NCBI RefSeq assembly: GCF_003353425.1 | Contig: NZ_QRAO01000004.1 | Location: 186,001 to 250,000 of the forward strand | DNA length: 64,000 nt | Reading direction: 5' to 3' | From: Marinirhabdus gelatinilytica | Lineage (GTDB): Bacteria > Bacteroidota > Bacteroidia > Flavobacteriales > Flavobacteriaceae | Shown: positions 24,409-39,286 of the stretch, piece by piece | Layout of the letters: every line of letters starts with the position of its first letter | Numbering within the stretch: the first letter of the stretch is position 1 | Notes under the pieces: generated by a model | Seen by the model: the letters and a program-made list of their open reading frames with translations, nothing else | Told to the model about the DNA's origin: nothing | Database searches by the model: none | Made by a program: the position numbers and the translations under genes

Positions 24409-24604
24409 AATTTGAAGATTAATAAGTTTGTAACTGTTTCAGAAATTAGTATATTTAGTAAGTGAAAAGAACAATTATTACTGTTTTCACAATATACATG
24501 TAATAGATACAGTTTTACAAAATTAGTTGCAAAATTACGATTGTTCCCCTGTTTATACAATTTTAATTGGCATCAAAAAACATAACAACATAATAAGAAC
24601 CAGC

Positions 24605-26800
24605 GTGGCTGAATTAGATTTATACGCAGCTCTCAAGAAGTATTTTGGTTTTTCGAAATTCAAAGGGCTTCAGGAAGAGGTGATCAAGAGTGTGTTGGCA
24701 CAAGAAAACACTTTTGTAATTATGCCCACCGGTGGTGGCAAGTCCCTTTGCTACCAGCTTCCCGCACTTATGCAGGAAGGTACCGCAATTGTAGTTTCCC
24801 CCCTTATAGCATTGATGAAAAATCAAGTGGATGCCATTAGAGCACTTTCCTCGGATGAAGGTATTGCCCATGTATTAAACTCTTCTTTGAACAAGACCGA
24901 GGTAAAAAAGGTCATGAGCGATATCGAGAATGGTATCACAAAACTTCTCTACGTGGCTCCAGAGTCGCTCACCAAGGATGAATATGTAAACTTTTTACAG
25001 ACGCAAAAAATTTCATTCCTCGCCATAGACGAGGCCCATTGCATTAGTGAGTGGGGCCACGATTTTAGGCCAGAATACCGAAATCTTAAAAAGATAATCG
25101 AACGTATAGGAGATAATATTCCAATAATTGGGCTTACTGCCACCGCCACTCCCAAAGTACAGGAGGATATTCTCAAAAACTTGGGAATTCAGGATGCCAA
25201 TACTTTTAAGGCCTCTTTTAACCGTCCCAACCTTTTTTATGAGATACGGCCCAAGACCAAAAATGTAGATGCGGATATCATTCGCTTTGTAAAGAAAAAT
25301 GAAGGAAAAAGCGGGATTATTTACTGCCTGAGCAGAAAACGTGTAGAAGAGTTGGCACAAACCTTACAGGTTAACGGGATTAAGGCGATTCCCTATCACG
25401 CAGGGCTGGATGCTAAAACCCGGGTAAAGCACCAAGATATGTTCTTGATGGAAGATGCAGACGTTGTGGTGGCGACCATTGCCTTTGGGATGGGTATAGA
25501 CAAACCAGATGTTCGTTTCGTCATACACAACGATATTCCCAAGAGTATCGAGAGCTATTACCAAGAAACCGGGCGAGCCGGTAGGGATGGTGGTGAGGGA
25601 CACTGTCTGGCCTTTTACGGATACAAGGATATTGAAAAACTTGAGAAATTTATGAGTGGCAAACCCGTTGCCGAACAGGAAATTGGCCACGCCCTCTTAC
25701 AGGAAGTGGTTGCGTTTGCTGAAACGAGTATTTCCCGCAGGAAATTTATACTCCATTATTTTGGGGAAGAATTTGATAATGAAACCGGTGAGGGGGGAAT
25801 GATGGACGATAATATGCGAAACCCCAAAAAACAACATGAGGCGAAAGAGGATGTTGTTAAATTGCTGAAAGTGGTAAAAGAGACCAATCAACAGTATAAA
25901 AGTAAAGAGGTTGTAAATGTATTGGTGGGAAAGGTAAACGCTATGATTAAATCCCACCGGACAGACCAACAATCCTTTTTTGGAATAGGGAACGATAAAG
26001 AGGCAGAATATTGGATGGCACTGCTGCGTCAAGTATTGGTGGCAGGAATGCTCTCCAAGGATATTGAGACCTACGGGGTTATAAAGATTACTGAAAAAGG
26101 TCTGGACTTTATTAAAAAGCCCGAAAGCTTTATGATGACCGAAGACCATTCCTATTCCGAGGATAGAGACGATAATGTAATAACACAACAAAAGGGCGGA
26201 GGTGCAGTGACCGATGAGCAACTCTTTAAATTGCTGAAAGGAGAACGAAAGCGTTTAGCCGATAAGCTGAGCTTACCCCCTTATGTGATTTTTCAGGATC
26301 CCTCACTAGAGGATATGGCGCTAAAGTACCCTATTACATTGGATGAGCTTGCTAATGTCCACGGTGTGGGTGACGGAAAAGCAAAAAAATACGGAAAGAG
26401 TTTCGTAGCGCTAATCTCAAGATATGTAGAGGAAAACGATATAGACCGTCCAGACGATTTTGTGGTGAAATCTACCGGGAGCAATAGTGGTTTAAAGCTA
26501 TATATCATTCAAAATGTAGATAGAAAATTAGCACTCGACGATATTGCCGATGCCAAGGGAATTGAAATGGACGCCCTCATGGACGAAATGGAGGCCATTG
26601 TATACAGCGGTACCAAATTGAACATAAGTTATTGGGTGGACGAGACCTTGGACGATGACCAACAAGAGGAGCTGCACGATTACTTCTTGGAAGCCGAGAC
26701 CGATAGCATTGAAGAAGCCATGGAAGAATTTGATGGCGACTACGATGTAGATGAGTTAAGGCTCTACCGTATCAAGTTTATAAGCGAAGTGGGTAATTAA
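24605..26800 (+). CDS. recQ: ATP-dependent DNA helicase RecQ (without zinc-site cysteines)
   Basis: Superfamily 2 helicase of about 731 residues: Walker A MPTGGGKSLCYQLP, DEAH box in AIDEAHCISEWGHDFRPEY, motif VI QETGRAGRDG, an RQC region, an HRDC domain (KGERKRLADKLSLPPYVIF to HGVGDGKAKKYG) and a C-terminal helical extension of about 110 residues. It unwinds DNA during recombinational repair. I chose GTG at 24605 (VAELDLYAALKKYFGF), which gives the usual length; a TTG at 24527 would add 26 unlike residues. The zinc cysteines that join helicase and RQC in E. coli RecQ are missing: the segment reads SISRRKFILHYFGEEF and then a cysteine-free NETGEGGMMDDNMRNP. Confidence 0.92.
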   Translation: MAELDLYAALKKYFGFSKFKGLQEEVIKSVLAQENTFVIMPTGGGKSLCYQLPALMQEGTAIVVSPLIALMKNQVDAIRALSSDEGIAHVLNSSLNKTEVKKVMSDIENGITKLLYVAPESLTKDEYVNFLQTQKISFLAIDEAHCISEWGHDFRPEYRNLKKIIERIGDNIPIIGLTATATPKVQEDILKNLGIQDANTFKASFNRPNLFYEIRPKTKNVDADIIRFVKKNEGKSGIIYCLSRKRVEELAQTLQVNGIKAIPYHAGLDAKTRVKHQDMFLMEDADVVVATIAFGMGIDKPDVRFVIHNDIPKSIESYYQETGRAGRDGGEGHCLAFYGYKDIEKLEKFMSGKPVAEQEIGHALLQEVVAFAETSISRRKFILHYFGEEFDNETGEGGMMDDNMRNPKKQHEAKEDVVKLLKVVKETNQQYKSKEVVNVLVGKVNAMIKSHRTDQQSFFGIGNDKEAEYWMALLRQVLVAGMLSKDIETYGVIKITEKGLDFIKKPESFMMTEDHSYSEDRDDNVITQQKGGGAVTDEQLFKLLKGERKRLADKLSLPPYVIFQDPSLEDMALKYPITLDELANVHGVGDGKAKKYGKSFVALISRYVEENDIDRPDDFVVKSTGSNSGLKLYIIQNVDRKLALDDIADAKGIEMDALMDEMEAIVYSGTKLNISYWVDETLDDDQQEELHDYFLEAETDSIEEAMEEFDGDYDVDELRLYRIKFISEVGN

Positions 26801-26803
26801 GCT

Positions 26804-27352
26804 TTAATATTCGGTTACCGAACCCCAATTTTCTCCACTTTTAATTCTGTATAGTTGCATTTCAGAAATACCAAACTGCTTGGCTATCATCTTTAGGCGC
26901 GTACGGCGATTGGGATCGTAGATTTTCCTCTTGATGAGTTTTACCTTGGCTTCGGTAAGCTTGGAATAGGTTCTCTTTCTGGGCTTGTTTTTATATTCAG
27001 GATTACTGAACTGGTGAACCTCTTTTTCTCGCTTCGTAGCCCATTTCAGGTTATCAACGTGGTTGTTCTTTTTATGGTAATCCAGGTGTATTACGTACAT
27101 ACCATCTTTTTGCTCCAAAAAGTGCTGTGCCACGAGTTTGTGTACATATCGGCTTGTGGTTTTTCCGTTTTTCTTTTGTCTAACAGCAAGGTTCTGGTAA
27201 CCGTTTATAAAGGACGGTTTTAGCAAGAACTCTTTCTCGCCCTTGCAGTTTATGAGCCTGCCGTAGTTTGAGATCTTAAACTTTTCAGTATCGGAAATCT
27301 TATCATCAAACACAATAGCTTTCCACTCTTCGTTCCAATAGCTTCGTATCAT
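26804..27352 (-). CDS. NUMOD4/HNH homing-endonuclease-like protein
   Basis: In this 182-residue protein an N-terminal NUMOD4-type region (YWNEEWKAIVFDD, FKISNYGRLINCKG, LKPSFINGYQNLAV) leads to an HNH_3-type nuclease core (YVHKLVAQHFL, YVIHLDYHKKNNHVDNLKW) with the histidine and asparagines in place. The C-terminus (LKMIAKQFGISEMQLYRI) is a helix-turn-helix of the NUMOD1 kind. Such proteins are known from mobile introns and phages but also occur as free-standing chromosomal genes. It stops three bases from the recQ stop, tail to tail, with no sign of an intron or flanking repeat. Whether it cuts DNA here is unknown. Confidence 0.8.
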   Translation of the reverse strand: MIRSYWNEEWKAIVFDDKISDTEKFKISNYGRLINCKGEKEFLLKPSFINGYQNLAVRQKKNGKTTSRYVHKLVAQHFLEQKDGMYVIHLDYHKKNNHVDNLKWATKREKEVHQFSNPEYKNKPRKRTYSKLTEAKVKLIKRKIYDPNRRTRLKMIAKQFGISEMQLYRIKSGENWGSVTEY

Positions 27353-27426
27353 GGGTTTTTGGTTTAGAAAGTTTTACTTTTTATGTAAAAGCTATCGGCT
27401 CCCCAACCAAAGCTTGTTATGCTAAT

Positions 27427-28131
27427 TTAACTGTTTTCCACAGGTTTTATAGTTTTTTTACTGAAATACTCCGTACACGCAAATACCGTGAGCAACATTC
27501 CTAGATTATAGATTATATCTTCCACGGGGATGGTATGTAGGCGTATTCCCATATTTTCGATATTGTTGTACCACACTACTTGCTCTTCAATCCAACCCCC
27601 GGTAAGTGTTCCGTTCACTATAAAAAATGGAATTAAAATAATGAGGTAGGTAGCAAGAAAGGACTGTAACGAAGCCCTGTTTCGGTTAAAAAGCAAGCCT
27701 AATATAAGCAAGGCATATACAAAATTGACCAAGGTGTACCATCTGTCATAATAATACCAAAGGGTCACGATCAATATAGAAAATAATAGCACCACCGTTA
27801 CATTTACGGTTTGTATTGAAAATTTAAAATTCTTGTTCAATGCCAAGATGGCGTAATGTGTAAAGATGCATGCGTAGGGGATACAGAAGAAGAACAACCA
27901 TTCCTCAATGGGAAGACTCAAAAATGTATACCCCGTAATGTATGCATCGTTAAATCCCCAGAAACCGTTAGTGGTGAAAGCGATGTCCCAAGGAATGAAA
28001 ATGGCCATCATCACCAATACGCCTATTAAAAACCCTTTCCATTTTTTATAAAATTGAATCTTGGGATGAAAACTGAACAGGAATGGAATAATAAAAGAGC
28101 CCAGATTGAGCCATAGGTAGAGGTATTCCAT
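27427..28131 (-). CDS. crtY: Lycopene beta-cyclase (CrtYcd-type membrane protein)
   Basis: The 234-residue hydrophobic protein has six to seven spans and the cyclase-domain motifs FIPWDIAFTTNGFWGFND and LPIEEWLFFFCIPY, repeated in weaker form (IPVEDIIYNLGMLL) in the second half. It is the fused equivalent of the heterodimeric CrtYc/CrtYd cyclase of actinobacteria and fungi, and turns lycopene into beta-carotene. It is the last gene of the crt operon, three bases after crtZ. Confidence 0.88.
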   Translation of the reverse strand: MEYLYLWLNLGSFIIPFLFSFHPKIQFYKKWKGFLIGVLVMMAIFIPWDIAFTTNGFWGFNDAYITGYTFLSLPIEEWLFFFCIPYACIFTHYAILALNKNFKFSIQTVNVTVVLLFSILIVTLWYYYDRWYTLVNFVYALLILGLLFNRNRASLQSFLATYLIILIPFFIVNGTLTGGWIEEQVVWYNNIENMGIRLHTIPVEDIIYNLGMLLTVFACTEYFSKKTIKPVENS

Positions 28132-28134
28132 ATA

Positions 28135-28584
28135 TTATTTTTTGAAATATTTCATAGGTGGCACCAACATCCCAAAACATTCGCCCTCTTTCTTGCCCAG
28201 ATGCTTGTGGTGTATTTTGTGGGCCCGTCTAATGCCTTTTGCATACCAATTAGTAGCATTTCGGAACAGCTTGAAACGTTGGTGTATAAAAATATCGTGG
28301 ACAAAAAAATAGGTAACGCCGTATGCAAAAATGCCCAGGCCAATGGGCAGGCCGGCCCAAAAACCGTAATATTCCCAACCAATGAAACAGCCTATACTAA
28401 CCCCAGCATAGAACAAAAAGAAAAAATCGTTGCGCTCCCACCAGCTGTTGTGGTCCTTTTTATGATGGTCTTTGTGGAGAGACCATAAAAAACCGTGCAT
28501 AACATATTTGTGCGTGAACCACGCCATAAATTCCATAATGCAGAAGGTAGTGAGGAAAATCAATATCCAAAAAACGAGGGTCAT
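28135..28584 (-). CDS. crtZ: Beta-carotene hydroxylase
   Basis: The 149-residue membrane protein has the four histidine clusters of the di-iron fatty-acid-hydroxylase superfamily: HKYVMH, HKDHHKKDH, HDIFIHQR and HKIHHKH. It adds 3- and 3'-hydroxyls to beta-carotene to give zeaxanthin. It lies between crtB and crtY with spacers of three bases on each side, so the four crt genes form one message. Confidence 0.93.
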   Translation of the reverse strand: MTLVFWILIFLTTFCIMEFMAWFTHKYVMHGFLWSLHKDHHKKDHNSWWERNDFFFLFYAGVSIGCFIGWEYYGFWAGLPIGLGIFAYGVTYFFVHDIFIHQRFKLFRNATNWYAKGIRRAHKIHHKHLGKKEGECFGMLVPPMKYFKK

Positions 28585-28587
28585 AGC

Positions 28588-29430
28588 TTATCGAACGAGT
28601 TTTAGTTGGTACTTTACATAACTACGTGTCAAGAGTCCAAATTTTTGGTAATTGGGCACTCTAATCCTGGAGTTCTTAATTTCAAGAGCCGGGGTTTTTG
28701 CCAGTTTCTTTAGAAGCTTTCGGTAGTACCGATAGGCCATAAAAACTCCAAATTTGGCCTCTGCAGGTAGGTGCAATATACCTTGGTACCCTTTTTTGAA
28801 ATCTTCTTCAATATCTTCAATAATTTTCTTTTTTGAAGCTTCATCCAAGGCATTGAGGTTTGTGTTAGGAAAGTAAGACCTGCTCAATCCTTCAAAATCT
28901 TCTTTTAGGTCGCGTAAAAAATTCACTTTTTGGAAAGCGGAACCCAGTGACATAGCGGCACTTTTCAATGCTTCATATTTTTGGGTATTTCCCTTCACAA
29001 AAACCTTAAGGCACATAAGCCCCACAACATCTGCAGAGCCGTAAATGTATTCTTTAAATTCTTTGTCGGTCAGGTACTCGCTCTTGCTTAAATCCATCCG
29101 CATACTCTTCATAAATGCACTAATGAGCTCTTGGTCTATACTGTAAAGGTGTACCGTTTGTTGAAAGGAATTCAATATAGGATTTAAGCTGATTTTTTCA
29201 GTGAGGGCATTTTCCAGGTCTTTTTCAAATCTATTGAAAAGCGCGGGTTTATCGTAATCGTGAAAACTGTCCACAATCTCATCAGCAAAGCGAACAAAAC
29301 CATAAATATTGTAAATGTCCTGCCTAATGCTGGGCGCAAGCATTTTCGTGGCCAAGGAGAACGAAGTGCTATAGGCATTGGTAACCTGCTTACTGCAGGA
29401 GTTTGATACGGTGTCGAAAAGTGCTTTCAC
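28588..29430 (-). CDS. crtB: Phytoene synthase
   Basis: A 280-residue squalene/phytoene synthase family protein. The two aspartate-rich motifs that bind magnesium-diphosphate are FADEIVDSF and NFLRDLKEDF, and YGSADVVGLMCLKVF is the conserved helix between them. It joins two geranylgeranyl diphosphates into phytoene. No geranylgeranyl diphosphate synthase gene lies in the window. The start overlaps the end of crtI by four bases. Confidence 0.93.
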   Translation of the reverse strand: MKALFDTVSNSCSKQVTNAYSTSFSLATKMLAPSIRQDIYNIYGFVRFADEIVDSFHDYDKPALFNRFEKDLENALTEKISLNPILNSFQQTVHLYSIDQELISAFMKSMRMDLSKSEYLTDKEFKEYIYGSADVVGLMCLKVFVKGNTQKYEALKSAAMSLGSAFQKVNFLRDLKEDFEGLSRSYFPNTNLNALDEASKKKIIEDIEEDFKKGYQGILHLPAEAKFGVFMAYRYYRKLLKKLAKTPALEIKNSRIRVPNYQKFGLLTRSYVKYQLKLVR

Positions 29431-30890
29431 GAATGGTGTTTTTCAATTAAACTTGCGGCTAGCTTTCCTGAAATCAAGGATGGCGGAACACCGGGCCCAG
29501 GGACCGATAGCTGACCTGTAAAATATAGGTTCTTTACTTTTTTGCTCTTAATTTTTGGACGCAGAAAAGCGGTTTGTAACAATGTGTTTGCCAAGCCATA
29601 CGCATTGCCCTTGTACGAGTTGTAATCTTCAATAAAATTATTAATACAGAACGACTCTTTAAATATAACGAAATTTCTTACTTGCTGGTTGGTAAGCTGC
29701 TCAAAACGGGTCATTATTTTTTGAAAATAGGTCTCTCTAATGCTTTCTGTGTCTTCAATGCCAGGTGCTAAGGGTATTAAAAAAATAGCGGCTTCTTTTC
29801 CTGTTGGGGCAGCGCTGTCATCGGTTTTTGAAGGGAAACTTGCGTAGAACAAAGGGTTTTCTGGCCAAGAGGGATCATCGTAGATAGTACGGGCGTGGGC
29901 CTGAAAATCTACGTCAAAAAACAGCGTATGGTGTTCCACGTTCTCAACTTTCTTGTCGAAACCTACGTAAAAAAGTAATGAAGAGGGGGCAAAGGTTCTT
30001 TTTTCCCAATAGCTTTCAGGGTATTGGCGGTATTTTTTGGGGAGCAGTGTTTCGGTATGGTGGTAATCTGCGCCGCTCAAGATAATATCTGCTGAAATGT
30101 TTTCCCCGTTAACCACTAGCGTTTTTGCTGTACCATTTTCAACAGGAATACGGTCTACAGTACTATTGGTATGTACAGTAACACCTAAGCTTTCAGCTAG
30201 CTTTTTCATGCCTTCAATTACCGAATACATCCCATCCTTGGGGTGAAAGGTGCCCAAACCAAAATCGGCATAGTTCATAAAACTATAAAATGCTGGAGTG
30301 TTTGAAGGTTTCGCACCTAAAAATAAAACCGGAAATTCCAAGATAGAGACCAAACGCGGATTATTAAATTCTCGCCTCACCTCTTTGCTTATAGTGCTAA
30401 AGAACTGCCCTAGCTTTTTCATGGTTACTGGCGTTACCAGTTCCAAGGGAGAAACTCCCGGGCGGTACACAAGGTCTTTTATGGCAATGTTATAATTGTC
30501 CTGGGCCTTGGCAATAAATTTCCTTAGCTGCTTGGAGCTCCCTTTTTCTTCGGCTTCAAAAGTGGCGCATATTTTTTCGAGGGTATCCCCGATAGTTATA
30601 AAATCGTTCTTCCCAAAATATACCGAATATGCTGGGGCGAGCTTTATGAGTTCATAATACTCTGAGGGTTTTTTATTGAAATCTGAAAAGAAACGCTCAA
30701 AAACATCCGGCATCCAATACCAAGTGGGGCCAATATCGAAGGTAAAGCCCTCTTTTTTTAATTGTCTGGCGCGACCACCTACGGTACTGTTTTTCTCGTA
30801 AATGGTTACATTGTTGCCTGCTTTTGCAAGATAAGAAGCAGCAGCCAATGAAGAGAACCCAGAACCTATTATTGCGACGTTTTGTTTCAT
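29427..30890 (-). CDS. crtI: Phytoene desaturase
   Basis: The 487-residue flavoprotein starts with the FAD-binding dinucleotide fold VAIIGSGFSSLAAASYLAKAG and GGRARQLKKEGFTFDIGPTW, and ends with the CrtI family signature LYFTGQLSVPGPGVPPSLISGKLAA (here split by few changes). It carries out the desaturation of phytoene to lycopene. It is the first gene of the crt operon and follows the MerR-type regulator gene by 56 bases. Confidence 0.92.
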   Translation of the reverse strand: MKQNVAIIGSGFSSLAAASYLAKAGNNVTIYEKNSTVGGRARQLKKEGFTFDIGPTWYWMPDVFERFFSDFNKKPSEYYELIKLAPAYSVYFGKNDFITIGDTLEKICATFEAEEKGSSKQLRKFIAKAQDNYNIAIKDLVYRPGVSPLELVTPVTMKKLGQFFSTISKEVRREFNNPRLVSILEFPVLFLGAKPSNTPAFYSFMNYADFGLGTFHPKDGMYSVIEGMKKLAESLGVTVHTNSTVDRIPVENGTAKTLVVNGENISADIILSGADYHHTETLLPKKYRQYPESYWEKRTFAPSSLLFYVGFDKKVENVEHHTLFFDVDFQAHARTIYDDPSWPENPLFYASFPSKTDDSAAPTGKEAAIFLIPLAPGIEDTESIRETYFQKIMTRFEQLTNQQVRNFVIFKESFCINNFIEDYNSYKGNAYGLANTLLQTAFLRPKIKSKKVKNLYFTGQLSVPGPGVPPSLISGKLAASLIEKHHS

Positions 30891-30946
30891 TATTGTTTAA
30901 CAAATTTATATAATTCTTCAACAAAATAGGTGAGGTCTCCCAAAAT
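30891..30946 (-). promoter_or_regulatory. Possible crt operon promoter and operator
   Basis: The 56 bases between the regulator gene and crtI hold, on the minus strand, a TAAATTTG box (plus coordinates 30901-30908) that fits the Bacteroidota -7 consensus, with TTTTG-like sequence upstream at a rather short distance. A palindrome TTGTT-T-AACAA (30893-30903) overlaps the box. A MerR-type protein coded next door could bind there; this is inference. Confidence 0.35.
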
Positions 30947-31858
30947 TTATCTTTTCTTTAAGGTTTCCAGTGCAGTGGTTAACTGTGGTATGTTTGTGAA
31001 AAGCTTTATGTTTTCGGGTAAGTTCTCATTAACGGCCTCTTTAGCCTTGCCTCCCATGAGCCATAGTTCGTTTTTATTGTTGGGTCCTATGGTAGCATTG
31101 TATAGTTCGCAGAAATCCTGAATGGTCTGGTGTGATGGTTCTACGGTGAGGTAACTAAGAAATTGTATGTCCTCGTGGTGTTTTATGACCTCCTTTAAAC
31201 TGTTGAAGGATATATTCCCGCCAAGGTATATGGTGTTTACCCCGTGGCTTACGCACAGGTAATTGGCATATACAAGTCCTATTTCGTGAATTTCCCTATA
31301 GGGCAGGAACAGCGCAAAAGTGGGAGGTGCTTTTAATTCATTTTTGTGGTATTGGCTTTCTAGGTTAAGCACAATTTTCTGTTTTACCATTTCAGAAATA
31401 AAACGTTCATGGCATGGGTCAATGGTGCCGGTTTGCCATAAAATACCGAGGTCAGTTAGCAGGGGGATAAAAATATCTTGAAATACTTCGGGAAACGTCC
31501 TTTCCTCCAAAAGTGCGTTGTAGGTTTTTGCAAATAATTGCTGGTTAAACTCGAACATAGCCATTTTAAAGTTGAAAATAGAATGTTCTTCGGTTTTGGT
31601 TATGGCAAGTTCTGCTACCAAATTTTTCAGTTCCTTTTTGTCCAGTGCAGCTATCTTGGATATTTTATATCCATTTTGGTACAGAAAAGATACGTTCAGC
31701 AACTTTTTTAAGCTTTCCAGATGGTAGGCCCTGATATTGGTTTCGGTCCTGGAAGGTTTCAATATCCCATATCGCTTTTCCCAAATCCTAATAGTATGTG
31801 CTTTTATACCACTTAGGTTTTCAAGGTCCTTGATACTGAATTTTGTTTTAACAAGCAT
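30947..31858 (-). CDS. CarH/LitR-like MerR regulator with cobalamin-binding domain
   Basis: The protein of about 303 residues has a MerR winged helix (FSIKDLENLSGIKAHTIRIWEKRYG), a four-helix B12-binding cap (LGILWQTGTIDPCHERFI) and a Rossmann B12 domain with the ligand motif REIHEIGL, where the histidine (residue 191) would bind cobalt. This is the build of CarH/LitR, adenosylcobalamin photoreceptors that repress carotenoid genes in the dark, and it lies directly upstream of crtI. The W-x9-EH cap motif reads W-x9-ER here, and the histidine that follows the tryptophan in Thermus CarH is glutamine. I chose ATG 31858; an upstream in-frame start at 31921 adds 21 unlike residues. Confidence 0.82.
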   Translation of the reverse strand: MLVKTKFSIKDLENLSGIKAHTIRIWEKRYGILKPSRTETNIRAYHLESLKKLLNVSFLYQNGYKISKIAALDKKELKNLVAELAITKTEEHSIFNFKMAMFEFNQQLFAKTYNALLEERTFPEVFQDIFIPLLTDLGILWQTGTIDPCHERFISEMVKQKIVLNLESQYHKNELKAPPTFALFLPYREIHEIGLVYANYLCVSHGVNTIYLGGNISFNSLKEVIKHHEDIQFLSYLTVEPSHQTIQDFCELYNATIGPNNKNELWLMGGKAKEAVNENLPENIKLFTNIPQLTTALETLKKR

Positions 31859-31970
31859 TTGGGATTTGTTAGATACCAAAGATAACATTTCTAGGATAAG
31901 GATCCCCCAAAATATGTCCATCTATTAAAGGGCAGGAGTTGTGTGCCGGTGTAACTAAGCGCAGGGTATA

Positions 31971-32005
31971 TAAAAAAGCCATCTCGATGGAGATGGCTTT
32001 TTTTG
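31971..32005. terminator. Bidirectional intrinsic terminator
   Basis: AGCCATCTC and GAGATGGCT arms around GATG-type loop bases, flanked by an A-run on the left and a T-run on the right, so it can end transcripts from either side. It would terminate the tRNA-Lys/tRNA-Leu message, which runs leftward. Confidence 0.85.
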
Positions 32006-32089
32006 GTACCCGGGATGGGACTTGAACCCACACGCAACAAGTGCACACGGCCCTCAACCGTGCCTGTCTACCAATTTCAGCACCCGGGT
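32004..32089 (-). tRNA. tRNA-Leu (anticodon GAG)
   Basis: On the minus strand the acceptor stem ACCCGGG pairs with CCCGGGT, the anticodon stem CACGG/CCGTG encloses TTGAGGG (anticodon GAG), a long variable arm typical of class II tRNAs follows, and the T arm contains GGGTTCAAGTCCC. The 3' CCA is encoded. It lies 53 bases downstream of tRNA-Lys in the same transcript. Confidence 0.95.
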
Positions 32090-32142
32090 AGTTGTTTCCT
32101 GCTGGAAACTAAAAAAGTACCGCGACGAGCGATACTTTTTAG

Positions 32143-32215
32143 TGACTTGGCTGGGGCTCGAACCCAGGACCACCTCCTTAAAAGGGAGGTGCTCTACCAA
32201 CTGAGCTACCAAGTC
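32143..32215 (-). tRNA. tRNA-Lys (anticodon TTT)
   Basis: On the minus strand the acceptor stem GACTTGG pairs with CCAAGTC, the anticodon stem CCTCC/GGAGG encloses CTTTTAA (anticodon TTT) and the T arm has GGGTTCGAGCCCC. CCA is not encoded. First gene of the two-tRNA unit. Confidence 0.96.
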
Positions 32216-32261
32216 ATAATTTCAAATTGCGAACGGGAATATTAATTCCCTTAAGCGGGTG

Positions 32262-32293
32262 CAAATATACTAGCATTAAATTTATTTTTCAAA
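32262..32293 (-). promoter_or_regulatory. Promoter of the tRNA-Lys/tRNA-Leu unit
   Basis: Minus strand TTTG (plus 32290-32293) and TATATTTG (plus 32262-32269) are 20 bases apart, as in Bacteroidota housekeeping promoters. A small hairpin GGGAAT-ATTA-ATTCCC (32235-32250) lies between the expected start of transcription and the tRNA. Confidence 0.65.
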
Positions 32294-32365
32294 GTAATTT
32301 CAAAGAAATATTTTCTTTCACCATAAATTGATAATTTCAATTAAAATTTGAATAATTTTACCATT

Positions 32366-32884
32366 GTGAAACTACTACTTTTAGGATATATGGGGAGCGG
32401 CAAAACTGCTGTAGGAGAGCGTCTTGCTGAAGTGCTGGACATTCCGTTTTACGATCTGGACCTTGAAATAGAGAAGGGGGGGCAAAAAAGTGTTCCTGAA
32501 ATCTTTAGTGAAAAAGGGGAGATATATTTCAGAAAAAGAGAAGTAGAAGTGCTTCAAGAACTCCTAAAATCTGACGAGAGATTTGTGCTATCACTGGGCG
32601 GCGGTACACCTTGTTATGGCAATGTGATGCAAATTATAAACAAAAGGGCAGGAGTGACTTCAATATTCCTGAAAGCATCAGTAGAAACTCTTACGCATCG
32701 GTTATTTCCGGCGAAGCAGCATAGGCCCTTGATTGCTCATTTGCAAACTGAAGAGGAACTTAACGATTTTATTCGTAAACACCTCTTTGAGAGAAATTTT
32801 TACTATCACCAAGCAGCCTTAACGGTACATGCCGATACAACGGTAAGGGAAATAATTTCTGAAATTGTGGCAAGATTATTCTAA
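32366..32884 (+). CDS. aroK: Shikimate kinase
   Basis: The 172-residue P-loop kinase has Walker A LLGYMGSGKTAVGERLA, the shikimate-binding DLDLEIE, the FRKREVEVL helix and LSLGGGTPCY. It phosphorylates shikimate in the aromatic amino-acid pathway. I chose GTG at 32366 because it puts the P-loop strand at the usual distance from the N-terminus; a TTG at 32348 would add six residues. The stop overlaps the stop of the convergent phosphoribosyltransferase gene by nine bases. Confidence 0.9.
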   Translation: MKLLLLGYMGSGKTAVGERLAEVLDIPFYDLDLEIEKGGQKSVPEIFSEKGEIYFRKREVEVLQELLKSDERFVLSLGGGTPCYGNVMQIINKRAGVTSIFLKASVETLTHRLFPAKQHRPLIAHLQTEEELNDFIRKHLFERNFYYHQAALTVHADTTVREIISEIVARLF

Positions 32885-33379
32885 AACAGCTCTATCGTTC
32901 CCTTTCTCAAAAATTACCGAAACATTTTCATTGAGGGAGGTAGATAACGAAATCCCTTTGTAATCTGCCTTAACCGGGTATTTTTTATGGTTTCTGTCCA
33001 CCAGCACAGCTGTTTTGAATTGTTTGAGCGGAACCTCCAAAAAATGCTTTATACCATAGATAAGCGTAGTGCCAGAGTGTAGCACATCGTCCACCAAGAC
33101 CAAGCTTTTGTTGGTGTATTCTTCAGGTGAGAGGCTTGTGGTAATGGTAGTTATAGGATTTTTTTTGTCCATTTGCACCTTACATAGTGTTACTTGTATG
33201 GGAGAGATTTTTTCTACTGTTTTTTTTAGTTTTTCAGCAAGCGTGTAGCCATTTTGGACAATTCCTGCGATAATCACTTCGGTCTCCGAAACATTGGCCT
33301 CGTATATTTGATAGGCCATACGTTTAATTTTGTGTTCAATTTCGGTTTTTGTCAATATAACAGTTTCGGTCTGTGGCAT
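32876..33379 (-). CDS. Phosphoribosyltransferase, PyrR-like
   Basis: A type I phosphoribosyltransferase of about 167 residues with the PRPP loop LVLVDDVLHSGTTLIYG and a C-terminal AVLVDRNHKKYPVKADYKG, closely like PyrR (pyrimidine-operon regulator/uracil phosphoribosyltransferase). No pyr genes or PyrR-type leader are near, so a regulatory role is doubtful here. The start at 33379 (MPQTETVILTK) matches the family; the ATG at 33433 would extend the protein by 18 residues over the end of the S4 gene. Confidence 0.78.
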   Translation of the reverse strand: MPQTETVILTKTEIEHKIKRMAYQIYEANVSETEVIIAGIVQNGYTLAEKLKKTVEKISPIQVTLCKVQMDKKNPITTITTSLSPEEYTNKSLVLVDDVLHSGTTLIYGIKHFLEVPLKQFKTAVLVDRNHKKYPVKADYKGISLSTSLNENVSVIFEKGNDRAVLE

Positions 33380-33413
33380 TTCATAAGGTTTTTTCAAAGA
33401 TACTAAGGTAATA

Positions 33414-33791
33414 TCATTCTTCGTCGTCGCCACGGGTATAATCTTCTATATCACGACGGTCTTTTTTGGTAGGTCTTCCTATCCCTTTTTTCCGGTAGTA
33501 GGTTTTGGAGTATTTTAAAAGTTCGGTTTTCTCAAAGTTTTCCTTGGGGGTAGTGTCCACGCGGTACAGGTTTACAAGTTTGGCACCCACGCGGCTTGGT
33601 GGAATATCCAGAACCTCTATGGTATAGTCAATTTGGTTTTTTCTGAAATGTATGGTGTCTCCCGGGTACACGTCCCGTGAGGGTTTCACCTTGCTGCCGT
33701 TTACCTTTACGGCACCTTTTTTACAAGCCTGTGTCCCTATGTTTCGTGTTTTAACATAGCGTATGCACCATAAATATTTATCAACCCTCAT
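33414..33791 (-). CDS. S4-domain RNA-binding protein (Hsp15-like)
   Basis: The 125-residue basic protein is an S4 fold: MRVDKYLWCIRYVKTR, then ACKKGAVKVNG and PSRDVYPGDTI. It resembles HslR/Hsp15, which binds stalled 50S subunits carrying nascent chain-tRNA. The C-terminus is very basic and then acidic (KKDRRDIEDYTRGDDEE). The phosphoribosyltransferase gene follows on the same strand. Confidence 0.87.
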   Translation of the reverse strand: MRVDKYLWCIRYVKTRNIGTQACKKGAVKVNGSKVKPSRDVYPGDTIHFRKNQIDYTIEVLDIPPSRVGAKLVNLYRVDTTPKENFEKTELLKYSKTYYRKKGIGRPTKKDRRDIEDYTRGDDEE

Positions 33792-33867
33792 ACAAAAGCC
33801 CTTAATTCTGCGTTAATAAAGGATACAAAAATAATGGAAAATTGTATCTTGCGCACCTCAAAAAAAG

Positions 33868-34830
33868 ATGATGAAACACATTAAATACATAATCCCACTT
33901 TTAGTAATGGGTATTTCTCTGTTTGTAAGCTGTAGTAATGACGATGACGGTACCGACTCTACGTTTATCCCTGCTAGGGATAGGGGGGAGGAAGTAGTAC
34001 GTGCTACCAATATTATTGAAGAATACCTGACCACGCATTTTTATAACTACGAAGAGTTCCAAAACCCGCCAGCAGATTTCGATTTCAGAATAAAATTTGA
34101 TACTATCGCTGGTGACAATGCAGATAAAATTGCATTGATTGAACAAGTGGAATCCAAAACTGTTCAAGATAGGGTAAATGAAGATGTTTCCTATACACTA
34201 TATTATTTGGATGCCTTGGAAGGCGCGGGGGAAAAGCCAAACTTCCCGGATCTAGCCACGATTAGTTACGAAGGAACCTACCTAAATGTCCCTTTTGAAG
34301 ATGAAGATGGTAGTCTAGAGAACTTTAGTCCTTACACGAAGATTTTTGACTCCTCAATTGTTCCCGTAAAGTTTGATATGACGAATGTTGTTAACGGCTT
34401 ACAGGATGGTTTGATCGAGTTTAAGACCGCGTCAACAATAATTACCAACCCAGATGGTACCGTAACTTTTGAAGAGTTTGGTGTGGGCGCTGTATTTATG
34501 CAGTCAGGTTTGGGATATTATGTAGATGTACCTGCAGGCTCTAACATACCTTTGTATTCGCAGCTTATCTTTACGTTGCAAATGTACGAGAGTGAGATAG
34601 GAGACCAAGACGGCGATGGAATCCCATCTTTTATGGAAGACCTAAACAACAACGGTCTAGAAGAAGACGATGATACAGATGGCGACCTTGCCCCTAACTA
34701 TAGTGATGCAGACGATGACGGCGATGGCAGACCCACAAGTGACGAGATTGTAGTGAATGCAGATGGCTCCATTACATTCCCGGATGAGGACAACGACGGA
34801 ACACCAGATTATCTTGATTCTGATAGTTAA
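33868..34830 (+). CDS. FKBP-like lipoprotein with C-terminal calcium-binding-type Asp repeats
   Basis: The 320-residue protein has a lipoprotein signal (ISLFVSC, Cys22) followed by an Asp-rich linker. Residues 115-235 look like an FKBP peptidyl-prolyl isomerase domain (ATISYEGTYLNVPFEDED, IFDSSIVPVKFDM, VNGLQDGLIEF). The last 80 residues hold DxDxDG repeats (DQDGDGIPSFMEDLNNNG, DADDDGDGRPT, DEDNDGTPDYLDSDS) like thrombospondin type 3 or EF-hand calcium sites. It should sit on the outer membrane and help fold exported proteins; the calcium repeats may stabilise it in seawater. Both points are inference. It is convergent with the transketolase genes across a shared terminator. Confidence 0.78.
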   Translation: MMKHIKYIIPLLVMGISLFVSCSNDDDGTDSTFIPARDRGEEVVRATNIIEEYLTTHFYNYEEFQNPPADFDFRIKFDTIAGDNADKIALIEQVESKTVQDRVNEDVSYTLYYLDALEGAGEKPNFPDLATISYEGTYLNVPFEDEDGSLENFSPYTKIFDSSIVPVKFDMTNVVNGLQDGLIEFKTASTIITNPDGTVTFEEFGVGAVFMQSGLGYYVDVPAGSNIPLYSQLIFTLQMYESEIGDQDGDGIPSFMEDLNNNGLEEDDDTDGDLAPNYSDADDDGDGRPTSDEIVVNADGSITFPDEDNDGTPDYLDSDS

Positions 34831-34853
34831 TTGGGATTGTTCTTACAAGAAAT

Positions 34854-34889
34854 AAAAAATGCCTTGAGATCTCCTCAAGGCATTTTTTA
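34854..34889. terminator. Bidirectional intrinsic terminator
   Basis: Stem GCCTTGAG/CTCAAGGC with loop ATCTC, extended by A/T pairs, an A-run before it and a T-run after it. It serves the convergent FKBP-like lipoprotein gene and transketolase gene. Confidence 0.9.
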
Positions 34890-34908
34890 TGGTGCTAACT
34901 TAAAAGGA

Positions 34909-35859
34909 TTATTTTCTATCCAGCACCTTTTTTGAAGCTTTTACAATTGCGTTAGCGTTTAGTCCGTATTTGTCCATAAGCTGGTCTGGAGTACCGGATT
35001 CTCCAAACGTATCTTGTGTTGCAACAAATTCTTGAGGTGTTGGGTGTTGTTGTGCCAGTACTCTTGCCACACTTTCACCAAGGCCCCCTAGGTAGTTGTG
35101 TTCTTCGGCAGTGACAACGCAGCCTGTTTTTTTAGCAGATGTTATAATGGCCTCATCATCCAAAGGCTTAATGGTGTGAATGTTTATCACTTCGGCTGAA
35201 ATACCCTGTTCCTGTAATGTTCCAGCAGCTTGGAGTGCCTCCCAAACCAAGTGACCAGTAGCTACAATGGTAACATCGGTACCTTCTTGGAGCATCACGG
35301 CTTTTCCAATTTCAAAAGTTCCGTTTTCAGGAGTGAAGTTGGCAACTTTTGGCCTCCCAAAACGTAAGTATACGGGCCCATCGTGTTCAGCAATGGCGAG
35401 TGTTGCGGCTTTGGTCTGGTTGTAGTCACAGGTGTTGATAACCGTCATCCCTGGTAACATCTTCATAAGCCCAATATCCTCCAGGATTTGGTGCGTCGCT
35501 CCATCTTCGCCCAAGGTAACCCCGGCGTGGGAAGCACAAATCTTTACGTTTTTGCCACTGTAGGCAACACTCTGGCGTATCTGGTCGTACACACGTCCGG
35601 TAGAGAAATTGGCAAATGTACCCGTAAACGGAATTTTCCCGCCAATGGTCATCCCCGCAGCCATCCCAATCATATTTGCCTCGGCAATTCCTACTTGGAA
35701 AAAACGCTCTGGATGATTGGCTTTAAATTCGTCCATTTTTAAAGAGCCTGTCAGGTCTGCACAAAGTGCCACAACGTTTTTGTTCGTCTTGCCAAGTTCT
35801 GTCAATCCTGCTCCAAAACCTGAACGGGTATCTTTTTTTCCTGTATCTGTGTATTTCAT
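34909..35859 (-). CDS. Transketolase, C-terminal subunit
   Basis: The 316-residue protein holds the pyrimidine-binding and C-terminal transketolase domains: VALCADLTGSLKMDEF, RFFQVGIAEANMIGMAAGM with the catalytic glutamate, and ASHAGVTLGEDGATHQ. With the N-terminal subunit coded upstream it forms a complete thiamine-diphosphate enzyme of the pentose phosphate pathway (or a DXS-like relative). The two genes are split by 68 bases with no shared frame, so this is a two-gene form, not a frameshift. Confidence 0.9.
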   Translation of the reverse strand: MKYTDTGKKDTRSGFGAGLTELGKTNKNVVALCADLTGSLKMDEFKANHPERFFQVGIAEANMIGMAAGMTIGGKIPFTGTFANFSTGRVYDQIRQSVAYSGKNVKICASHAGVTLGEDGATHQILEDIGLMKMLPGMTVINTCDYNQTKAATLAIAEHDGPVYLRFGRPKVANFTPENGTFEIGKAVMLQEGTDVTIVATGHLVWEALQAAGTLQEQGISAEVINIHTIKPLDDEAIITSAKKTGCVVTAEEHNYLGGLGESVARVLAQQHPTPQEFVATQDTFGESGTPDQLMDKYGLNANAIVKASKKVLDRK

Positions 35860-35927
35860 CTAGTACTTAATTATACTGCTTTGCAGCATTATTTTTATTT
35901 TTAATATCCCCTTTGGGGCCAGAGGGA

Positions 35928-36773
35928 TTAATAGTCCCCCAGTGTTTCAGGATTTTGCGATAATGCGTCTTCCAGTTGCTCGTCATTGGGTGCTTTACCA
36001 TGCCAAGCGTGGGTGTGCATCATAAAATCTACCCCATTGCCCATAACGGTATGCATCAAGATGCAAATAGGTTTACCGTTGCCCGTTTTTTCCTTGGCGG
36101 TTTTTAGGGTTGAGAGGATTGCTTCAAGGTTATTGCCCTCTTTAACCTCAAGGACTTCCCAGCCAAAAGCTTCAAACTTTGCTTTTAGGTTTCCTAGCGG
36201 AAGGACCTGCTCCAAAGAGCCATCAATTTGCTGGCCGTTATAATCTACCGTAACTATTAGGTTGTCCACTTTGTTGCCGGCAGCATACATAATGGCTTCC
36301 CAGTTTTGGCCTTCCTGCAACTCCCCATCGCCACAAAGCGCATATATTAAATGCGAGTCCTGATTCAATTTTTTGGTTTCCGCAGCACCTATGGCAACCG
36401 ATATCCCTTGTCCCAAAGACCCCGAAGCTACTCGAATACCGGGCAGCCCCTCGTGTGTTGTTGGATGGCCTTGTAGGCGTGAATCTATATGTCTAAAAGT
36501 ATTTAGTTCATTTACAGGGAAATAACCAGCCCGTGCCAGAACACTATAAAAAACTGGAGAAATATGCCCGTTGGAGAGAAAGAAAAGATCTTCTCCTTTT
36601 CCGTCCATATCAAAGCCATCTTTTCGGTCCATCACCTCGTTGTAGAGCGCTACAAAAAATTCGGTACAGCCCAAGGAACCCCCTGGGTGCCCGGAGTTTA
36701 CGCGGTGTACCTGCCGTAGAATATCCCTACGAACCTGTATTACAAGATCTTCCAGTTTTTTTATATCTGCCAT
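35928..36773 (-). CDS. Transketolase, N-terminal subunit
   Basis: The 281-residue protein has the thiamine-diphosphate motif GDGELQEGQNWEAIMYA followed by VDYNGQQ, plus RVNSGHPGGSLGCTE and ASGSLGQGISVAIGAA. It covers only the cofactor-binding half; the remainder is coded by the next gene. The order N then C on one strand fits a coexpressed heterodimer as seen in archaea and many Bacteroidota. Confidence 0.91.
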   Translation of the reverse strand: MADIKKLEDLVIQVRRDILRQVHRVNSGHPGGSLGCTEFFVALYNEVMDRKDGFDMDGKGEDLFFLSNGHISPVFYSVLARAGYFPVNELNTFRHIDSRLQGHPTTHEGLPGIRVASGSLGQGISVAIGAAETKKLNQDSHLIYALCGDGELQEGQNWEAIMYAAGNKVDNLIVTVDYNGQQIDGSLEQVLPLGNLKAKFEAFGWEVLEVKEGNNLEAILSTLKTAKEKTGNGKPICILMHTVMGNGVDFMMHTHAWHGKAPNDEQLEDALSQNPETLGDY

Positions 36774-36978
36774 GGTATGTTTTGATTTTCAGTTTCAAAA
36801 GTAATTCAATTCGCTACTAGCACAAAGGCCGAAACCAAGCTTTTATTAACGATTTACGGGTTTTGTTAACAGTTCTTGAAGTTTGAAGGTTGTTGTAGTA
36901 CGCTAAGGGTTCTTTTTACTGAATTCTCACCTGGAAGGATCTGTAGAGAACTTGAAACTTTTAATTCGTTCCTTGTCG

Positions 36979-37010
36979 TTCGCAATTCGTCATTCAAAAA
37001 AGTATCTTTG
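36979..37010 (+). promoter_or_regulatory. Promoter of tgt
   Basis: TATCTTTG at 37003-37010 fits the -7 consensus exactly; the -33 element is weak (TTCGC, 19 bases upstream). It lies 21 bases before the chosen tgt ATG and so argues against longer starts at 36876. Confidence 0.6.
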
Positions 37011-37031
37011 CTGCTTCAACAGAAATTCTAT

Positions 37032-38162
37032 ATGCAGTTTACCCTACACAAAACCGATCCCGAAACACAAGCAAGGGCAGGAACCATACAACTTGATCAC
37101 GGCCCCGTGGAGACCCCGATATTTATGCCCGTGGGAACTATTGGAACGGTAAAAGGTGTGCATCAACGTGAACTTAAAGAGGAGATAAACCCTGATATCA
37201 TACTAGGGAATACCTACCATTTATACTTACGCCCGCAAACCGAAATCCTTGAAAAAGCAGGAGGGTTGCATAAATTCATGAATTGGGACCGAAACATCTT
37301 GACCGATAGTGGTGGTTACCAGGTCTATTCGTTGAGTGATAGACGGAAGATCAAGGAAGAAGGGGTAAAATTCAAATCACACATAGACGGCAGCTACCAT
37401 ACCTTTACCCCAGAAAATGTTATGGAGATACAGCGTACCATTGGGGCAGATATTATTATGGCGTTTGACGAGTGTACACCGTATCCTTGCGATTACAATT
37501 ATGCCAAGCGCTCTATGCACATGACGCATCGCTGGTTGGAACGTTGTATCACACATTTAGAAAAAACACCGCTTAAATACGGTTATGACCAAACATTTTT
37601 CCCTATTGTGCAAGGAAGCACTTACAAAGACCTACGGAAACAATCTGCCGAATATATTGCAGGGGTAGGAGCAGAAGGGAACGCTATTGGGGGACTCTCG
37701 GTAGGTGAACCCGCCGAAGAAATGTACGAAATGACCGAAGTGGTAACCGCAATACTTCCCAAAGAAAAACCACGTTATCTAATGGGTGTGGGTACGCCCA
37801 TAAACCTGTTGGAGAACGTTGCTTTGGGAATAGATATGTTTGATTGTGTGATGCCTACACGTAATGGAAGAAACGGTATGTTATTTACCGCCCATGGCAC
37901 CATAAACATAAAGAACAAAAAGTGGGAGGCAGATTTTTCCCCCATAGACGAAATGGGGATTACCTGGGTGGATCTAGAGTACAGCAAGGCCTATGTGCGT
38001 CACCTCTTTACCGTTAATGAAATGCTGGGAAGACAAATATGCACCATTCATAACCTTGGGTTCTACCTTTGGTTGATGCGTGAGGCGAGAAAGCAGATAT
38101 TGGCAGGTACCTTTGCCACTTGGAAAAACAAAATGGTGAAACAAATGGACAAGCGATTGTAG
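37032..38162 (+). CDS. tgt: tRNA-guanine transglycosylase
   Basis: The 376-residue enzyme has the conserved VETPIFMPVGTIGTVKGV, the DSGGYQV loop with the catalytic aspartate, GGLSVGEP, and MFDCVMPTRNGRNG. It swaps guanine for preQ1 at the wobble position of GUN anticodons during queuosine synthesis. The usual C-x-C-x2-C...H zinc motif looks modified: the end of the protein reads MLGRQICTIHNLGFYLWLM with no CxC before it, as in other Bacteroidota forms I recall only vaguely. The start at 37032 gives the family length and lies just after a clear -7 box. Confidence 0.92.
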   Translation: MQFTLHKTDPETQARAGTIQLDHGPVETPIFMPVGTIGTVKGVHQRELKEEINPDIILGNTYHLYLRPQTEILEKAGGLHKFMNWDRNILTDSGGYQVYSLSDRRKIKEEGVKFKSHIDGSYHTFTPENVMEIQRTIGADIIMAFDECTPYPCDYNYAKRSMHMTHRWLERCITHLEKTPLKYGYDQTFFPIVQGSTYKDLRKQSAEYIAGVGAEGNAIGGLSVGEPAEEMYEMTEVVTAILPKEKPRYLMGVGTPINLLENVALGIDMFDCVMPTRNGRNGMLFTAHGTINIKNKKWEADFSPIDEMGITWVDLEYSKAYVRHLFTVNEMLGRQICTIHNLGFYLWLMREARKQILAGTFATWKNKMVKQMDKRL

Positions 38163-38206
38163 CGTTCATAAATTTAAACCGAAATCTTGGATTTTGAATC
38201 AAGACT

Positions 38207-39286
38207 ATGCTAAGCATTTTAGATAAATACATTCTTAAGAAATACCTCGGGACCTTCGGGCTGCTGCTGCTGCTGTTCGTCCCCATTGGTATCATAGTGC
38301 ACTTGGCTGAAAAAATTGATAAGATTCTTGAAAATGAAGTCCCGTTCCCCATTGTTGCAAAGTATTTTCTGGACTTTACCATCTATTTTGCTGATTTGCT
38401 GTTCCCTTTGTTTCTGTTCCTTTCGGTAATTTGGTTTACTTCTAAACTTGCAAATAATACCGAGGTCATAGCCTTTTTGAGCAGTGGCGTTTCGTTTTAC
38501 AGGTTTTTACGTCCGTATATGATCGGGGCCACTATTGTGTGTCTCATTGCCCTGGCTTCTGGGATGTACTTTGCGCCAACGGCCAGTAAGGGTTTCAACG
38601 AGTTTAAATACAAATACCTAAAAAAGGGAAAGCGCGACCGGGACCAGACCAATGTGTTCAGGCAGATCAACGACAACGATTACATCTACGCCAGCTATTT
38701 TAATGTAAAGGAAAAAAGTGGAAGTAACTTCACCTTGGAACATTTTGAGGGTAACGAAATGAAATATAAGCTTTCGGCAAACCGCATAAAATACAACCCT
38801 CAAGATAGTACGTACTCACTTTTTAATTATTCAAAAAGAATTGTAGGTGCCCACGATGATAGTATCGAGACAAAAAAACGCTTGGATACCGTTTTCGATT
38901 TTGAGATGGAAGATCTCACCCCGGTAGACTATATAGCCGAAACCCTTAACGTTGTGGAGCTCAACAAATTTATTGCTCGTGAAAAAGCTAGGGGATCTTC
39001 TTATATCAATAGATATGAGGTGGTTCGCTACAAACGGTACAGTCTCCCGGTTTCGGCATATATCTTAACTATTATTGCTGTGGCTGTTTCCTCCATAAAA
39101 CGCCGTGGTGGGATGGGGGTAAACCTTGCCATTGGTATTGGTATTGGGATGGTCTTTATATTTTTCGACAAGATTTTTGGCACCATGGCAGAGCAGAGTA
39201 ACTTCTCCCCGTTTATTGCAACGTGGTTCCCTAATTTTGTATTTGCTATTTTAGCAATCTATCTGTTGAAAAATGCAAAACGATAA
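38207..39286 (+). CDS. LptF/LptG family permease
   Basis: The 359-residue protein has three N-terminal spans (LDKYILKKYLGTFGLLLLLF start), a periplasmic beta-rich domain of about 150 residues and three C-terminal spans ending in YLLKNAKR. This is the YjgP/YjgQ topology. With LptB it forms the ABC transporter that pulls lipopolysaccharide out of the inner membrane. It follows tgt by 44 bases and overlaps the DMT transporter gene by 14 bases. Confidence 0.9.
   Translation: MLSILDKYILKKYLGTFGLLLLLFVPIGIIVHLAEKIDKILENEVPFPIVAKYFLDFTIYFADLLFPLFLFLSVIWFTSKLANNTEVIAFLSSGVSFYRFLRPYMIGATIVCLIALASGMYFAPTASKGFNEFKYKYLKKGKRDRDQTNVFRQINDNDYIYASYFNVKEKSGSNFTLEHFEGNEMKYKLSANRIKYNPQDSTYSLFNYSKRIVGAHDDSIETKKRLDTVFDFEMEDLTPVDYIAETLNVVELNKFIAREKARGSSYINRYEVVRYKRYSLPVSAYILTIIAVAVSSIKRRGGMGVNLAIGIGIGMVFIFFDKIFGTMAEQSNFSPFIATWFPNFVFAILAIYLLKNAKR

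Follow-up and report, generated by a model that had tools for sequence, protein, structure and literature searches.

A CarH-like regulator with an altered cobalamin cap and a predicted operator at carotenoid and photolyase genes in Marinirhabdus gelatinilytica

Can a CarH-like regulator still respond to light when the cap over its cofactor and the residue that ligates cobalt after photolysis in Thermus CarH are both changed? The question is raised by a single-copy gene of Marinirhabdus gelatinilytica, located at 30947..31858 on the minus strand of the window, i.e., the whole 64,000-nucleotide stretch of DNA analysed here (contig NZ_QRAO01000004.1, positions 186,001 to 250,000). The gene encodes a MerR/B12-binding regulator of 303 amino acids (aa), and its 3' end lies 56 bp from the start of the phytoene desaturase gene crtI, upstream of it, as the preliminary description of this DNA had said, and on the same strand. 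Judged from sequence comparison and a predicted structure, the protein is probably a CarH-like repressor that depends on adenosylcobalamin (AdoCbl), is released by light and controls carotenoid and photolyase genes; it would work without the bis-His light state of Thermus CarH.

In Thermus CarH, Trp131 stacks on the adenosyl group and Glu141 bonds to it, and light leads to a His177-Co-His132 state (PMC10442372; this and the other articles cited by such numbers are represented by excerpts, and what is taken from them holds for those excerpts). Residues W141, Q142, H150, E151, R152 and H191 of the present protein correspond to W131, H132, E140, E141, H142 and H177 of Thermus CarH, whose numbers are used below for relatives. 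The cap motif (WQTGTIDPCHER; 31403..31438, minus strand) reads W141-QTGTIDPCH-E151-R152, compared with W131-x9-E141-H142 in Thermus, and the R152 codon, CGT, is a single transition from the His codon CAT. The lower cobalt-ligand motif, E189-I-H191-E-I-G194, is located at 31277..31294 on the minus strand. The HMMER alignment with Thermus CarH was gap-free across the cap, with EIHEIG aligned to the H177 region, and therefore no histidine falls at the cap position; a histidine there would have overturned the preliminary description. The residue readings of that description, i.e., a W-x9-ER cap, Gln after the Trp and an intact EIHEIG, were all correct. The nearby H150 (codon at 31409..31411, minus strand) aligns with E140; 187 of the 212 relatives have His there, and it is a candidate alternative upper ligand.

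The relatives came from 257 loci, of which five (L103-L107) belong to other families and one (L005) contributed no protein, being a 42-residue stump; the remaining 251 proteins comprised 213 distinct sequences, and 212 rows were kept after a 197-aa protein (L090) was left out. As the searches that yielded the loci ranked them by their similarity to the window protein, far relatives are under-sampled in all counts given here. The equivalents of Trp131, Glu141 and Glu175 (the Glu of the lower motif) were found in all 212 rows and the ligand His in 211. At position 132, His was present in just 11 of 212, the residue being mostly Gln, and thus it is the branch, and not this protein in particular, that lacks the upper ligand of Thermus. 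The second cap residue was His in 177 rows, Arg in 32 and Ser in 3. The preliminary description had treated the Gln and the Arg as one anomaly; Gln at 132 is the family norm, and Arg at 142 is the trait of a clade.

That clade was recovered in a support tree of 86 of the 212 rows, which included all Arg, Ser and His132 rows and was built with the cap columns excluded. All Arg and Ser rows fell into one 44-row clade of Flavobacteriaceae (support 98), made up of 32 Arg, 9 His and 3 Ser rows, and W131, E141, E175 and H177 have their equivalents in 44/44 of them. The same clade appeared in a quick tree that covered the full 212 rows, with His in 168/168 rows outside it. The Arg is beyond chance, since it is common to 32 of the 44 rows of a supported clade; the E-R pair is nonetheless not lineage-wide, which had been put forward as the point to check. 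The reading of the Arg as one clean synapomorphy was discarded (approximately unbiased (AU) test, p 1e-5). Between the clade and the remaining 143 main-branch rows, the only places in the B12 domain at which the two groups had different residues, each at more than 65%, were position 152 and, to a mild degree, position 268 (Met/Leu). A coupling of H132 with H142 was also considered and rejected: both were present in 7 of the 9 clade His rows and H132 in 1 of the 32 Arg rows, but this gave just 3 independent pairs on starred branches, of which 2 are inside the clade, and was not significant. A second Flavobacteriaceae subfamily (L091-L102), of about 32-38% identity, has a W-G...QEH cap in 10 of its 12 members.

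The target of the regulator is suggested by an inverted repeat at 30893..30924, in the gap between the regulator and crtI (30891-30946), the region for which the preliminary description had suggested a binding test. Its left and right arms read TTGTTGAA and TTAAACAA on the minus strand; the consensus is TTGTTTAA-N16-TTAAACAA, and the repeat belongs to a block against the crtI start that is common to the genus. The right arm overlaps TAAATTTG (30901..30908, minus strand; present in 4/4 aligned loci of the genus), a TAnnTTTG box which we take to be the -7-type promoter motif of Bacteroidota, here of crtI, so the placement is repressor-like. Each arm holds TGTnnA, the half-site of Thermus CarH. 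The Thermus repeat is nAnnTnnACAn, with TGTnnA as the reverse complement of its core (PMC8156234); it occurs as three tandem 11-bp repeats, whereas the operator predicted here has two inverted arms at a spacing of 24 bp. A direct-repeat reading (TTTGTTNAA twice) was dropped because the photolyase operon described below conserves TTGTTTAA...TTAAACAA. The carotenoid target proposed in the preliminary description is therefore both supported and sharpened.

Among 181 loci with crtI near the regulator gene, the crtI start could be located in 171, and upstream of it the repeat reached a score of at least 14/16 in 36/40 clade loci and 54/131 others. The start-to-start distance was 24 in 87 of these 90, and shuffles reached the score in 3/200 cases for the clade and 5/655 for the others. 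With a spacing of 23-25 enforced, the repeat was found in 90/171 loci. By comparison, it was present in 0/5 crtI loci of genomes in which no such regulator was found and, in genomes with the second subfamily only, in 2/25 within 90 bases and 5/25 within 300; both groups were defined by homologue searches, and 30 of their 32 crtI places were examined. The repeat also occurs upstream of the regulator gene itself, with a spacing of 24, in 20/44 clade loci and 17/168 others. Lineages that have no repeat at crtI can have one arm alone, TTTGTTTAA(C), about 25 bases before the regulator start, as observed in 22 loci that were chosen for their scores. A half-site, TTTGTTTAAC, stands ahead of several second-subfamily genes.

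The host genome (G000) contains four perfect repeat sites, compared with 0.19 expected per strand from the base composition of the window: one at crtI, one at a photolyase operon and two at a gene pair for a TetR-like regulator and an ABC1 kinase. Sites with one mismatch numbered 17 and 27, against 13 and 15 for a reversed-pattern control, and since this is a modest excess over the control only conserved one-mismatch sites were counted. The photolyase operon (G000:C2:434369-436839; L288:10370-12840) has the repeat 29 bases upstream of its first gene and consists of genes for an SRPBCC-like protein, an SDR protein and a DNA photolyase; SRPBCC-like is the name we presume for the first gene, which has no Pfam or NCBIfam match. 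The repeat is present at this operon in the host and three genus mates, a fifth genome of the genus (81% complete) standing outside the comparison. In a table of 52 genomes with one row each (G022 and G093, of 54, gave no match), the repeat precedes the SRPBCC-like gene, when this gene is first, in 22/26 clade genomes and 11/12 others, and in 0/14 where the gene is internal; shuffles gave 2/1040. In the 22 clade genomes it lies 20-35 bases before the start in 16 and 142-162 in 6, and among the clade genomes of the table are some whose regulator has a cap His or Ser. Such a shared operator at a photolyase operon is best explained, on this comparative evidence, by light control. The operator is retained whether the regulator has Arg or His, which makes it unlikely that the Arg protein is a dead copy.

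The TetR/ABC1 pair (G000:C3:465820-468009; L290:3821-6010) is flanked by its two perfect sites, 2.16 kb apart, one of which falls downstream of the last gene; in both G002 and G003 the pair is found again, accompanied by a perfect site and a second site that has one mismatch, and G001 has a repeat site without these genes. A one-mismatch host site before a DUF2867 NAD(P)-binding gene has a perfect counterpart at the likely orthologue in G001. Another one-mismatch site (L391:2578-2608; G000:C4:35577-35607) was observed between divergent genes for a cry-DASH cryptochrome and a methyltransferase.

It is quite possible that the change of His142 to Arg is simply neutral and that the photochemistry is that of the other flavobacterial homologues, which is compatible with a light-released repressor. 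Arg, His and Ser interchange within the clade (at least 8 changes of state at residue 142 on the 86-row tree and 7 on the quick tree of 212 rows), the Arg rows do not form one clade by the AU test given above, and the photolyase operator is identical inside and outside the clade. However, the invariable His outside the clade indicates that the position is normally strongly constrained, and the Arg has been retained in most clade rows. Close to where the clade begins, the constraint on this cap residue was thus relaxed or changed, the position being mobile since then while the other tested pocket residues stayed fixed, and Arg152 may tune affinity, yield or recovery, or be neutral.

How the protein should be classified depends on its domains as well as on its cap. 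Pfam matched MerR_1, MerR and B12-binding_2; the B12-binding family PF02310 gave no match to the regulator at 1e-3, and the Rossmann part was therefore assigned from the AlphaFold model, which has a mean pLDDT (predicted local distance difference test) of 91.4 from an alignment of 74 sequences. In Foldseek, the top 43 matches were all chains of Thermus CarH, followed by CtMerR at ranks 44 and 48. VIA-align against full-length CarH (5c8e_E) gave Z 18.4 over 271 residues with a root-mean-square deviation (rmsd) of 11.3, presumably because the two domains are set at a different angle; against the dark-state CarH B12 domain (9s06) it gave Z 17.9 and rmsd 2.4 over 195 residues. The values for CtMerR (Z 17.4-17.8) and the photocobilin SasPcob (Z 17.5-17.6) tie with these. 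With the Rossmann domain taken from the model, the architecture is that of CarH and class I LitR, i.e., a MerR domain, a four-helix bundle and a Rossmann B12 domain. The D/ExHx2G ligand motif is present as EIHEIG (residues 189-194), and where the rest of the B12 motif (x41-SxT/V-x22-27-GG) would be expected the protein reads S235-Y-L after 40 residues and GG at 269-270 after 31 more, the second Gly of which is not conserved among the relatives.

Of the known systems, Thermus CarH/LitR (5c8d/5c8e/5c8f and the 8c31 series; Z about 18) shares the domains, Trp131, Glu141, the H177 motif, the probable role in carotenoid control and the half-site TGTnnA/TnnACA, but differs at H142 (Arg here), H132 (Gln), E140 (His), R176 (Ile), D201 (Asn) and P203 (Ser), with an identity of about 20%. 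CtMerR of Chloracidobacterium thermophilum (8jbs/8jbt) shares the B12 domain fold and a residue other than His at 132 (Arg in CtMerR) but keeps EH, which is ER here. SasPcob of Saccharothrix syringae (8j2w/8j2x) shares the fold and Gln at 132, but has no MerR domain and also binds biliverdin. The class II LitR proteins of Pseudomonas (PplR1-3, PmlR2) are LitR-type and have a light regulon that includes photolyase/cryptochrome-like genes (PMC9758184), but lack the Rossmann B12 domain, whereas the model of the present protein contains the full two-part B12 domain. MliR was considered as a possible relative and rejected, no B12 link being named in the excerpt of PMC9478572. Under the published definition, which asks for the B12 motif and Wx9EH, the protein is not a strict CarH; as far as its sequence tells it would behave as a CarH, and we class it as a CarH-like flavobacterial variant.

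Several points weigh against a light-released, AdoCbl-dependent repressor. The salt-bridge pair of the Thermus CarH dimer, which we take to be R176-D201, is I190/N215 here, and therefore the oligomer may differ from that of Thermus. Of Wx9EH the W and E are present and the H is R, and the score against the NCBIfam CarH equivalog was 61.2 bits, with a cut-off of 400. The crtI-proximal repeat is absent in 81/171 loci, and the genus of the window lacks a repeat upstream of the regulator itself. Wx9EH has been called absolutely conserved in all studied CarH homologues, which it defines (PMC8156234), and W131, E141, H142 and H177 were listed as the key AdoCbl-binding residues in a mining study whose light signature consists of GxxW, EH, GxxH and GxxxP (PMC11796333). 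Of that signature GxxW alone is present here: EH has become ER, R188 takes the place of the Gly of GxxH and S217 that of the Pro of GxxxP, this P203 equivalent being Ser in the window protein and three genus mates. A signature-less control protein of the same study bound neither AdoCbl nor methylcobalamin, though its ligand His itself is replaced by Arg (PMC11796333). The Thermus H132A variant kept AdoCbl binding and stayed mostly tetrameric in light, in conflict with an earlier report of its disassembly cited in the same article (PMC10442372). Finally, Chryseobacterium lacus has light-induced carotenoids although its authors found no car/lit genes, according to the excerpt of PMC7064467, and other flavobacterial light regulators, to which the predicted operator could belong, may therefore exist; this was the only article on CarH in Flavobacteriaceae among the matches listed in a search of open-licence literature.

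A further explanation is a CarA-like repressor that keeps the B12 motif and is independent of B12 and light, to be released by an antirepressor or another signal. Myxococcus xanthus CarA, a repressor of crt genes with the same MerR/B12 architecture, keeps the B12 motif yet is B12-independent (PMC9304148, PMC8156234), and in the present protein the cap is broken at one residue and the GG end of the motif is loose among relatives. CarA, however, has lost the Trp and kept EH (PMC9304148), whereas here W141 and E151 are kept and the His is lost. Since Trp and Glu are unrelaxed throughout the clade and in 212/212 rows overall, the cap seems still to act on something, and a CarA-like repressor is unlikely.

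We regard it as slightly less likely again that the inverted repeat is owned by another light-response regulator and that the CarH-like protein is a bystander. The half-sites are short and A+T-rich, the operator role of the repeat is a prediction, one-mismatch sites in the host exceed the control only somewhat, and a single arm also stands before several second-subfamily genes. Against this, the repeat lies between the regulator and crtI, precedes the regulator itself in nearly half of the clade loci with the same spacing, and is rare at crtI in genomes lacking this regulator type (2/30). Similarly improbable is a sensor of cobalamin status or of another upper ligand (methyl-, hydroxo-) instead of light, which an altered cap could suit and for which several cobalamin forms may occur in the host, given its three proteins above the B12-binding cut-off, because the adenosyl contacts Trp131 and Glu141 are invariant, the operator marks a photolyase operon, which is useful in light only, and a PduO-type cobalamin adenosyltransferase (PF01923) was found in the host and in 52/52 genomes searched, inside and outside the clade.

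For the light-released repressor, the following course may be proposed. In the dark, AdoCbl would be held between the helical bundle and the Rossmann domain, the cobalt having H191 beneath it and the adenosyl group being covered by W141 and E151, and the repressor would oligomerise and occupy the inverted repeats over the crtI promoter and upstream of the photolyase operon. In light, the Co-C bond would be cleaved and the repressor released. The bis-His state of Thermus is impossible at residue 132, where Gln is present, and the light state would probably be a water/hydroxo cobalt linked to a glutamate, as has been reported for CtMerR, or one formed via H150. In the clade of the window protein, the second cap residue changed from His to Arg with the regulon retained. 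The identity of the ligand, the light response, the release and the binding of the repeat by the protein are what we infer from these comparisons.

Proteins with Arg, Gln or Tyr at 132 respond to green light, for which other photochemistry has been proposed (PMC11796333), and a residue other than His at 132 therefore casts by itself no doubt on a light response. In the same study, AdoCbl-bound CtMerR, with Arg132, changed from tetramer to monomer in light, and green light photolysed AdoCbl in SasPcob, whose oligomer was light-dependent only with biliverdin. Of the three options in the preliminary description (another cobalamin form, a different switch mechanism, no response to light), the second is the best supported, in so far as the bis-His state needs a His at 132 and 201/212 rows have none. 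The third is disfavoured by the operator at the photolyase operon and by the unrelaxed Trp131, Glu141 and ligand His. For the first, the evidence speaks neither in favour nor against; the host has a cobalamin adenosyltransferase.

The reading frame of the regulator is on the minus strand, a point on which the preliminary description is silent; this strand gives 303 codons where the plus-strand frame of 30947-31858 is stop-rich. The start at 31858 is backed by the N-terminal consensus of the relatives, MxVKTxFSIKDLENLSG, and by a motif match to TAnnTTTG, TATCTTTG (31877..31884, minus strand), presumably the -7-type box of the regulator; an alternative 324-aa open reading frame begins upstream of this box. 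After the regulator follow, on the same strand, crtI (29427..30890), a crtB-type phytoene/squalene synthase gene (28588..29430; Pfam), a crtZ-like hydroxylase gene (FA_hydroxylase, 28135..28584; Pfam) and a lycopene cyclase gene (Lycopene_cyc with a CarR-type domain, 27427..28131; Pfam/NCBIfam), and in loci of at least 6.5 kb crtI is next to the regulator and on the same strand for 25/25 Arg/Ser genes. In NCBIfam, CrtI exceeds the cut-off of the CrtID model, which describes a bifunctional phytoene desaturase/3,4-desaturase, so the carotenoid end product may differ from plain zeaxanthin. Directly 3' of the lycopene cyclase gene is an HNH endonuclease gene with a NUMOD4 motif (26804-27352, minus strand), which matches phage HNH families. 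On the other side, tRNA-Leu(gag) and tRNA-Lys(ttt) lie at 32004-32215 on the minus strand, separated from the regulator by a perfect, terminator-like inverted repeat (31972-32003). In 24000-40000, Rfam gave these two tRNAs only, with no cobalamin riboswitch at the gathering score, and scans for sigma-70 promoters and terminators did no better than shuffles.

That a protein lacking His132 can become monomeric in light is already known from CtMerR; what is new here is the inverted repeat at crtI and at the photolyase operon. Tentatively, the whole lineage may sense light via B12 without the upper His, one clade having swapped the cap His for Arg while keeping the regulon, perhaps with His150 or the pair Glu151/Arg152 as substitute, and B12 photoreceptors would then have a further natural way to form their light state. 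Wx9EH has been used to define and to mine CarH proteins, and the bis-His state of Thermus is the best worked-out light state. If a clade with W-x9-ER and Gln132 does keep a light-protection regulon, the mining rule would be too narrow, and a defined operator would allow a direct test of whether Flavobacteriaceae use B12 to regulate carotenoids and photolyase by light.
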